A stretch of DNA of 64,000 nucleotides from Pontibacter sp. HSC-14F20 (GTDB lineage Bacteria; Bacteroidota; Bacteroidia; Cytophagales; Hymenobacteraceae), in the NCBI RefSeq assembly GCF_019599265.1, contig NZ_JAHZTC010000001.1:186001-250000 (forward strand). The letters are read 5' to 3'. Numbering within the stretch: position 1 is the stretch's first letter; the number at the start of each line of letters is the position of its first letter. Positions 62,227 to 64,000 of this stretch are shown piece after piece. Under the pieces are notes generated by a model that was not told the origin of the DNA, ran no database searches, and saw nothing but the letters and a program-made list of their open reading frames with translations. A program made the position numbers and the translations under genes.

Positions 62227-62280
62227 GGTCAACCAATACTGTTTGTGTTTTCAGTTCGCGGGCGCTGACCGCGAACTGTT

Positions 62281-62331
62281 ACGCCATGAAAAAAGGTGCT
62301 GAACTATATTCAGCACCTTTTTTCATGGCGT
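62281..62331. terminator. Perfect 23-bp bidirectional terminator
   Basis: 62281-62303 is the exact complement of 62309-62331, with a 5-base loop and A6/T6 runs in the stem. It lies between the convergent small membrane protein and ACP-like genes. Confidence 0.95.
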
Positions 62332-62354
62332 AAATCAAATGGGAAATTTTGAGC

Positions 62355-62597
62355 TTATCTGGCAGTGCTCAACTGCAGGTAATTAACCAGGTCATCTATT
62401 GAGTAAACCGGTACTTCGTCCGGAATCACGACATTATACCTCTTCTCTACTGCCAGTATAATATCTACCACATCAACTATATCCAATCCATTTTCCCAAA
62501 GGCCTTTGGGACCGGAAAGTTTATGGGGGGCGATTGTTTTTAATCTGCTTACCAGATTAAGTACCTCACTGTACAAGGTAGTTCTAGGATCTGCCAT
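62355..62597 (-). CDS. Acyl-carrier-protein-like protein without the attachment serine
   Basis: An 80-residue helical protein aligned with acyl carrier proteins: LWENGLDIVDVVDIILAVEK, then RYNVVIPDEVPVYSIDDLVNYL. In true ACPs the start of helix 2 reads D-S-L; here it is GLD-I-V-D, with isoleucine (codon ATA) where the phosphopantetheine serine belongs. So it cannot be loaded in the usual way. It stands alone, without ligase or synthase genes. It may be a structural ACP mimic or a decayed ACP. The frame is intact. Confidence 0.7.
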   Translation of the reverse strand: MADPRTTLYSEVLNLVSRLKTIAPHKLSGPKGLWENGLDIVDVVDIILAVEKRYNVVIPDEVPVYSIDDLVNYLQLSTAR

Positions 62598-62628
62598 ATG
62601 CTTAAAATAAAAGGTAGTGTTTCCTGTT

Positions 62629-62659
62629 CTCCTCCTGCCTTTAGTTCTGGCAGGAGGAG
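62629..62659 (-). terminator. Hairpin after the RND gene
   Basis: An 11-bp perfect stem CTCCTCCTGCC (62629-62639) with 62649-62659, just past the stop of the RND gene. No strong T run follows. Confidence 0.6.
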
Positions 62660-62679
62660 AGAGGATTTTAAATTAGATC

Positions 62680-64000
62680 TTAGTGCGCATACTCGTGCGC
62701 CATTTTCCTTTCTTCGAGTGCTTTGGTTTCGTGCTCCAGTTCTTCCAATATTTTCTCTTCCAGCACGATCACAGTTTTCTTGTCCCAGCCGAACTTTGCC
62801 AGGATGCGGTCAAAACCGTAGTAGATGATCGGCACCACGATCAGAGTCAGGAACATAGATGAGCTCAGACCACCGATCAAAGCCCAGGCCAGACCGTTCT
62901 TGGTCGCGGCCACGGAGCCACCTGCCAGTGCGATCGGCAACATACCAATCACCATCGCAAGCGTCGTCATCAGGATCGGACGGAAACGGATACGAACTGC
63001 TTCGGTCAGGGCTGCTTTCACCTCCACGCCTTCATCTTTCAGCTTGTTGGTAAAGTCAACCACCATAATCGCGTTTTTCGCTACCAGACCAATCATCATA
63101 ATGATACCCAGGATCGAGAAGATACTCAGTGCCTGTTGTGCCAGCGCAAGTGCCAGTAAGGCACCAATGATCGCCAGCGGTATAGAGAACAGTACTACCA
63201 GTGGGTATACATAAGAGTCGTACAGGGCCACCATGATCAGGTATACAAAGATGATAGAGGCCAGCAAGGCGATACCCAGCGTACCAAAACCTTCGCTCTG
63301 GTTTTTCATGTCGCCACCAAACTCGTAGCTCACACCTTTTGGCGCTTCTACTGCCGCGAGTTTCTCCTGAATCTCTGCACCGATCGAACCAGACGGACGA
63401 CCGATTACCTGCGAGTTCACGTTCACGGAAGTTACACGGTTGTAGCGCTCCAGCTGCGAAGGACCTGTTGACTGACGGATATCAGCAAACTGACCCAGAC
63501 GCACCAGTTGGCCCGTATTGTTCACAAAAGACAGGTTAGCAATATCTGTCACGCTGCGGCGGTCAAACTCGTCGAGGCGGATGTTGATGTCATAGTCTTC
63601 AGTACCGGAGCGGAATGTCACGTCGGAGTTACCACTAAAGGCCAGCTGCATGCTTGCACCTACGTTCTCCAGCGACAGGCCTACGTTGGCCATCTTATCA
63701 CGGTCCACAACTACTTCAATTTCCGGGTTACCACCTTCCACTGACATCTCGACGTCGGCCGTACCAGACACACCTTCTACCACGCGCATTACCTGCTGCG
63801 AGAAATTCATCACACTGTCCAGGTTAGAACCTGAAATAATCAGCTGGATTGGCGCTTGTGAGTTACCAACCAGACCTACCGGCACCGGTGTCACTTCCAC
63901 GTTCGGAAGTTTGCTCTCGATGTCAGCTTTGGCCTGACGGCTAAACTGGTCGGTGCTGAACGTACGCTCCTTCACGTCAATCAACGTCACTGATACTTCC
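62680..64000 (-). CDS. RND efflux permease, C-terminal part (gene runs off the window)
   Basis: The visible 440 or so residues are the C-terminal half of an AcrB-type (HAE1) inner-membrane pump of about 1,000-1,100 residues, driven by protons. Seen here are the porter region (NVEVTPVPVGLVGN, SGTADVEMSVEGGNPEI) and the second membrane half (LGIALLASIIFVYLIMVALY, GLVAKNAIMVVDFTN, IRFRPILMTTLAMVIGMLP). GLVAKNAI fits the conserved region after helix 10. The start lies beyond 64000, and the fusion and outer-membrane partners would be upstream there. Confidence 0.92.
   Translation of the reverse strand, partial: EVSVTLIDVKERTFSTDQFSRQAKADIESKLPNVEVTPVPVGLVGNSQAPIQLIISGSNLDSVMNFSQQVMRVVEGVSGTADVEMSVEGGNPEIEVVVDRDKMANVGLSLENVGASMQLAFSGNSDVTFRSGTEDYDINIRLDEFDRRSVTDIANLSFVNNTGQLVRLGQFADIRQSTGPSQLERYNRVTSVNVNSQVIGRPSGSIGAEIQEKLAAVEAPKGVSYEFGGDMKNQSEGFGTLGIALLASIIFVYLIMVALYDSYVYPLVVLFSIPLAIIGALLALALAQQALSIFSILGIIMMIGLVAKNAIMVVDFTNKLKDEGVEVKAALTEAVRIRFRPILMTTLAMVIGMLPIALAGGSVAATKNGLAWALIGGLSSSMFLTLIVVPIIYYGFDRILAKFGWDKKTVIVLEEKILEELEHETKALEERKMAHEYAH

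Follow-up and report, generated by a model that had tools for sequence, protein, structure and literature searches.

A family of serine-less acyl carrier-like proteins linked to RND efflux pump genes in the Hymenobacteraceae

What use might a bacterium make of an acyl carrier protein (ACP) that cannot carry an acyl chain? The question is raised by a small gene in the window, a stretch of 64,000 nucleotides from a contig of Pontibacter sp. HSC-14F20. The source genus, Pontibacter, belongs to the family Hymenobacteraceae, in which named relatives are up to 95% identical to the gene product. This product, here designated pACP_A, resembles ACPs and has isoleucine at the position of the phosphopantetheine serine. 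Features of the locus, together with a second pseudo-ACP gene of the same genome, pACP_B, are collected in Table 1.

Table 1. Features of the locus; positions are those of the window unless a locus (L) is named
Feature	Position	Strand	Basis or remark
pACP_A, pseudo-ACP of 80 aa, Ile-40 for the phosphopantetheine serine	62355..62597	(-)	ORF check (80 aa plus stop, exactly this interval); profile and PDB matches; structure model
12-bp perfect hairpin	62628..62660	(-)	in the 82-nt gap from RND_A stop to pACP_A start
RND_A permease gene, 3' part (1059 aa; PF00873 ACR_tran, 864 bits)	62680..64000	(-)	family search
25-bp perfect inverted repeat	62279-62333 (arms 62279-62303, 62309-62333)		noted by eye; not flagged by scan
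IS1-like transposase ORF, 233 aa	59218-59919	(+)	identified by look
pACP_B	L031:10252-10506		passes PF00550; serine-less

An ACP-like protein with isoleucine for serine

Where the ordinary ACP of the genome has its own serine-site stretch, pACP_A reads ENGLDIVDVVDIILAVEKRYNVVIPDEVP, and its core, GLDIVDVVDIILAVEKRYNVVIPDEVP, aligns with ACPs such that Ile-40 falls on the phosphopantetheine serine. Likeness to ACPs, judged from sequence, appears weak but beyond chance. The NCBIfam models PRK07081.1 (E = 1.5e-5) and TIGR00517 (E = 5.5e-5; 23 bits against a cut-off of 70.45) match pACP_A under their curated cut-offs, and the only entry listed by Pfam is PF14573 (13.6 against a cut-off of 32). Because these scores lie below the curated thresholds, automatic annotation may well give the gene no name. 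A sequence match in the PDB (2ehs, E = 3.4e-5) likewise aligns the ACP serine to Ile-40, with pACP_A two residues shorter than the ACP after the IPDE motif. Thus pACP_A has in common with ordinary bacterial ACPs (TIGR00517, PF00550) the predicted fold, the acidic residues of helix II and the IPD motif, but differs from them in its shorter sequence after IPDE and in two marks of a functional ACP, having neither the serine at the start of helix II nor a score above a curated family cut-off.

A structure model (AF2, built with 22 relatives; pLDDT 83.5, pTM 0.69) predicts an ACP fold. The top Foldseek matches of the model are ACPs at TM scores of about 0.8, the best hit having E = 1.2e-3 and TM 0.79, with no match at E <= 0.001. 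Comparison by VIA-align gives Z-scores of up to 13.1 (1.4 Å over 76 residues), values that helical bundles may reach through their common arrangement; every row listed is an ACP or, as with complex I, an assembly known to contain ACP subunits. As modelled, pACP_A has the four-helix fold of an ACP. A lone sequencing error at Ile-40 was rejected, since DIVD also stands at this site in at least ten further Pontibacter genomes. The sequence-only reading, in which the gene was proposed to encode an ACP-like protein with isoleucine in place of serine, is borne out by the ORF, the 2ehs alignment and the predicted fold.

Searching the same genome with PF00550 (E <= 1) returned two proteins, an ordinary DSL ACP encoded directly before fabF and the serine-less pACP_B; pACP_A was not picked up at this threshold. 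A second ACP gene with serine, for which the earlier reading had proposed a search, is therefore present, and pACP_A was rejected as the working ACP of the genome because the ordinary ACP stands beside fabF. pACP_B is 41% identical to pACP_A over 75 positions. Since it passes the cut-off of PF00550, the "phosphopantetheine attachment site" family, without the serine (21.4 versus 20.8 bits), databases likely misname it.

Distribution of the serine-less clade and selection upon it

All 204 Hymenobacteraceae genomes searched contain a pACP match (196/196 of good quality; 6/6 genera), a count that pools pACP_A and pACP_B, with residues read in the fetched loci only. Among these loci the family profile matches 161 distinct sequences, 150 without the serine and 11 with it. 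Position 40 is variable in the serine-less sequences (1.8 bits), which carry 84 T, 42 I, 9 L, 4 P, 4 Q, 2 N, 2 V, 2 A and 1 M. E51 is present in 150 of them, D60 in 149, and D42, I58 and P59 in 148 each. Throughout the clade as read, the serine appears to be missing while the rest of the sequence is held. The serine-bearing sequences are the genome's own ACP (L071) and proteins from outside the family (L069, L070, L202-L208 and L273); five of the 11 lie beside fabF (L071, L203, L204, L207 and L208). Serine ACPs branch apart from the serine-less rows in both trees that included them, six ACPs in one (support 90) and three in the other (100/100), the 62 rows of the latter being hand-picked.

Ratios of nonsynonymous to synonymous substitution (dN/dS) range from 0.010 to 0.157 in 23 hand-picked pACP pairs, several with dS near or above 1, so that single values are rough. 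The absence of the serine from 150 of 161 profile matches, the identity of the remaining 11 as serine ACPs, and the low dN/dS together therefore mark pACP as a dedicated, non-acylatable pseudo-ACP under purifying selection. This accords with the earlier suggestion that selection holds the fold without the prosthetic group. That suggestion was to be checked by asking whether a non-serine residue is conserved in orthologues, as it proves to be among the profile matches; the contrary pattern of serine-bearing orthologues with relaxed selection was also looked for and was not seen.

Beyond the family, matches weaken, and the sequences that were read carry the serine. Forty of 59 close genomes match pACP_A; three of these lie outside the family and match only weakly (E 4.7e-4 to 6.8e-4), and two of the three were read and proved to be DSL ACPs. 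In the order sample, 323 of 341 genomes have some match at E <= 1e-3. The best out-of-family score there is 55.7 bits versus 67 to 131 bits among the family members listed; the most divergent serine-less paralogues, L046 and L050, reach only 43 and 48 bits. Serine is present in all seven out-of-family loci of the order that were fetched. A phylum-wide family was rejected, as only 5 of 395 genomes in the phylum sample pass E <= 1e-13, four of them of the Hymenobacteraceae (the genome itself and three others) and the fifth with a DSL match. As far as sampled, the serine-less clade appears confined to the Hymenobacteraceae. The best out-of-family match (L202:9639-9893, in G324 from another family of the order) is a serine ACP that adjoins neither fabF nor an RND gene; it has in common with the pseudo-ACPs a shorter loop after IPD (IPEETEINSVGE) and may be their nearest serine-bearing relative.

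Linkage to RND permease genes and departures from it

The gene for pACP_A lies behind that of the permease RND_A, which is preceded by genes for an adaptor (MFP), a TolC-type protein and a MarR-type regulator; these genes and the start of RND_A lie past the window end on the same contig (cluster seen in L051). In a separate TolC-MFP-RND operon of the same genome, pACP_B begins 3 nt after RND_B (1144 aa). Linkage to RND genes extends to the relatives: in 75 of 80 named loci the pACP gene is immediately preceded, in the same orientation, by the gene of a full-length RND permease. The 80 are the best-scoring of 190, lean toward this type, and share ancestry, so that the 75 are not independent events. 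By rough estimate, well under 1% of randomly chosen genes would be directly preceded by an RND permease. Gaps between permease end and pACP start run from -29 to 218 nt in the 75 loci, with starts set mechanically. RND_B is missing or a remnant in four of the five exceptions, L121, L127, L141 (Rufibacter) and L149 (Pontibacter silvestris), and the fifth, L157, is a short contig with a permease end that one ORF separates from the pACP. In group g26, which includes Rufibacter and may include other genera, pACP lies 103-366 nt behind RND_A on the same strand in 16/16 genomes.

RND_A and RND_B are only 25.6% identical over 1126 positions, the two pACPs are 41% identical, and the label "pACP next" changes at least five times at well-supported branches in a quick tree of 23 permeases (members hand-picked, with a long-branch warning). 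The link between pACP and pump is therefore not a simple co-duplication of one operon. The permease closest to the RND_A group in this tree lacks a pACP within the 1.5 kb examined. In one Hymenobacter-group locus (L194) the permease is of a third type, and a pACP stands behind its TolC gene. In the pACP tree, RND_A-linked sequences of Pontibacter lie among the RND_B-linked sequences of that genus, and those of g26 lie elsewhere. This suggests, as a lead from tree topology, two separate arrivals behind RND_A, one in Pontibacter and one in the Rufibacter group; an AU test does not reject a single arrival (p = 0.168 and 0.154). The single long frame followed up as a candidate permease-pACP fusion (425 aa reported for G079) was not borne out: in L263 the frame has 105 residues and begins some 100 nt after RND_B.

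The gap between RND_A and pACP_A contains a perfect hairpin followed by no T run. A hairpin is predicted in this gap in all 11 close Pontibacter loci folded, and the 11 aligned gaps keep the stem while its letters change in some (e.g., L090). Ten more distant loci likewise have a strong hairpin predicted somewhere in the 150 nt leading up to the approximate pACP start, where the end of the permease gene may fall as well. The gap hairpin could set the ratio of RND_A and pACP_A products. About 20 nt past the pACP_A stop lies a longer inverted repeat, possibly a two-way terminator.

Pairing with a pump is not strict. A search of 17 genomes (16 of g26 plus G033) found no RND_B permease in four of them, G033, G191, G193 and G202, and all four retain the pACP_B gene, so that pACP_B does not occur only together with its pump. 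By contig coordinates these four correspond to the named loci L149 (G033), L121 (G191), L127 (G193) and L141 (G202), and such matching is how genera were assigned to genomes with G numbers. Since it is kept without RND_B, and since dN/dS is 0.044 in a pair from two loci without RND_B (L121 and L127), pACP_B does not need its neighbour. Conversely, 8 of 12 RND_A orthologues (>=75% identity) have no pACP within the 1.5 kb examined, four of these eight genomes having been chosen for a single pACP match; in three of the eight a wider stretch contains no pACP either. Eleven loci of pACP paralogues have no adjoining RND gene, in the sense of no RND_A or RND_B query match in the stretch examined (L044, L046, L050, L190, L191, L193, L195, L196, L199, L200 and L201); in L195 an RND cluster lies about 4 kb from the pACP. 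Because pumps are lost with pACP kept, and RND_A occurs without pACP, pACP would act at least partly in trans or have a second role.

Some of these paralogues have recurrent neighbours of other kinds. Serine-less pACPs in two genus groups lie just upstream of a gene that, by look, encodes a phosphoesterase-like lipoprotein (L190:5556-6852, L191:5697-7057 and L193:8429-9564). The divergent paralogues of two Pontibacter genomes adjoin the same flavoprotein-like gene, also named by look (L046:7946-8866 and L050:8243-9165).

Precedents and candidate roles

Two known systems bear on the possible role of pACP. In mycobacteria the ACP AcpM is reported to be bound to MmpL5, a permease of the RND superfamily (PMC11633376, PMC12346298, PMC12501195). 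One group locates AcpM at the basic I-alpha-2 helix and C-terminus of MmpL5, with the Ser41 arm sandwiched between protomers (PMC12501195). In another article AcpM is first described as a fortuitous co-purifying protein, and its D40, V45, E46, E52, D53, Y55 and D61 are among the contacts to MmpL5 residues such as H382, R383, R390 and R948 (PMC11633376). By manual motif alignment anchored on S41 = I40, AcpM residues D40, V45, E46, E52, Y55 and D61 would correspond, at a constant offset of one, to D39, V44, D45, E51, Y54 and D60 of pACP_A; the contacts Q50 and D53 are not kept (A49 and K52). Because the contact letters kept in pACP are also kept in ordinary ACPs, the correspondence is compatible with docking on a pump rather than proof of it. 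AcpM is thus an ACP fold on the cytosolic face of an RND-superfamily permease, and pACP shares the fold, as predicted, and is tied to RND permeases by gene linkage. The two differ in that AcpM is an ordinary meromycolate ACP with a phosphopantetheine arm, whereas in pACP the arm cannot attach and the gene adjoins that of the pump. We know of no linkage of the AcpM gene to an RND permease gene.

The second precedent is the mitochondrial ACP of Plasmodium, which is reported to lack the conserved serine and to be an essential subunit of the Isd11-Nfs1 complex; the authors report serine-less ACPs outside the Apicomplexa from Vitrella only (PMC8547962). Like pACP, this protein is a serine-less ACP, and it has its place in a protein complex without reliance on fatty-acid synthesis. 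It is eukaryotic and partnered with Isd11-Nfs1, whereas pACP forms a bacterial family linked to efflux pumps. Among open-licence PMC papers, none was found that describes serine-less ACPs as a family in bacteria, or a Hymenobacter or Pontibacter ACP tied to RND or efflux. A serine-less ACP and an ACP on an RND permease are thus each known singly, and their combination was not found in those papers.

The two precedents combined lead us to propose, with a probability of roughly one half, that pACP is a prosthetic-group-free cytosolic accessory of RND pumps. It would dock as an apo-ACP-shaped subunit on the inner face of the permease, its acidic helix-II face (D39, D42, D45, E51 and D60) meeting the cytosolic TM6-TM7 linker, the C-terminal tail or both. 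Once docked it would stabilise or tune the pump, uncoupled from fatty-acid synthesis, and it probably serves more than one pump and so can act in trans. Because pACP genes are linked to RND efflux pumps, we take such a role as the leading version of the "regulatory or structural use" of an ACP shape at which the sequence-only reading had hinted. The broader statement, that the Hymenobacteraceae evolved pACP as a fourth, cytosolic part of tripartite RND systems, recruited next to two or more unrelated permeases and used by several pumps in trans, is tentative and has somewhat less than an even chance of being right. If true, RND permeases in general could use the ACP shape as a docking module in the cytosol, with no need of acyl transfer. 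In a strongly selected, serine-less bacterial ACP family behind RND genes, the adaptor role of ACP would be set apart from its role as an acyl carrier. Such a family would also offer a genetic system in which to test ACP-shaped proteins as real pump components, because pACP should not double as a needed acyl carrier.

Other roles would account for parts of the same evidence. pACP might mimic ACP as a regulator, binding the ACP-binding enzymes of fatty-acid, lipid A or phospholipid synthesis and adjusting lipid synthesis upon induction of the pump operon, in trans and with no binding to the pump. The acidic positions that pACP keeps are shared with ordinary ACPs, pACP_B stays under purifying selection after loss of RND_B, and some paralogues are not beside pumps, all of which would fit; this reading is nevertheless unlikely, as it leaves unexplained the position behind unrelated RND permeases in 75 of the 80 best of 190 loci. 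Somewhat more doubtful is a small adaptor unrelated to the pump, with some other envelope partner and an RND neighbourhood due to inherited position or shared regulation. The persistence of pACP_B without RND_B and the paralogues beside other genes, such as the phosphoesterase-like lipoprotein gene (by look) of L190, L191 and L193, point this way, but the association with two or more permease families that share only about 26% identity, and the constant place behind RND_A in g26 (16/16), argue against it. The core of the ACP bundle could instead hold an untethered fatty acid or another amphiphile by non-covalent binding, with pACP sensing such molecules for the pump or delivering them to it. 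RND pumps export amphiphiles, and hydrophobic letters of pACP are kept (e.g., V43, V44, I46, I47 and I58); ordinary ACP, however, sequesters chains tethered to the arm that pACP is without, and we give this role a slim chance. A functionless, decaying ACP duplicate, as loss of the key serine might suggest, was rejected as highly improbable given purifying selection in all 23 pairs, a match in every one of the 204 family genomes, and E51 in 150 and D42 in 148 of the 150 serine-less sequences.

Docking of pACP on RND permeases would place its contacts in the TM6-TM7 linker and C-terminal tail, the regions by which MmpL5 binds AcpM, and no docking signature was found in these two parts of the permeases, which show no pattern following the presence of pACP; the linker and tail of RND_A are alike with or without an adjoining pACP. 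An acidic C-terminal tail of about 50 residues (L051:9684-9836 (-)) is conserved in RND_A orthologues of both kinds. The TM6-TM7 linker of RND_B (L031:6814-10245) is some 45-75 residues longer than that of the other RND permeases compared and has an added hydrophobic stretch; its net charge is +7 to +13 in the Pontibacter, Rufibacter and Adhaeribacter rows and 0 to +5 in the Hymenobacter-group rows.
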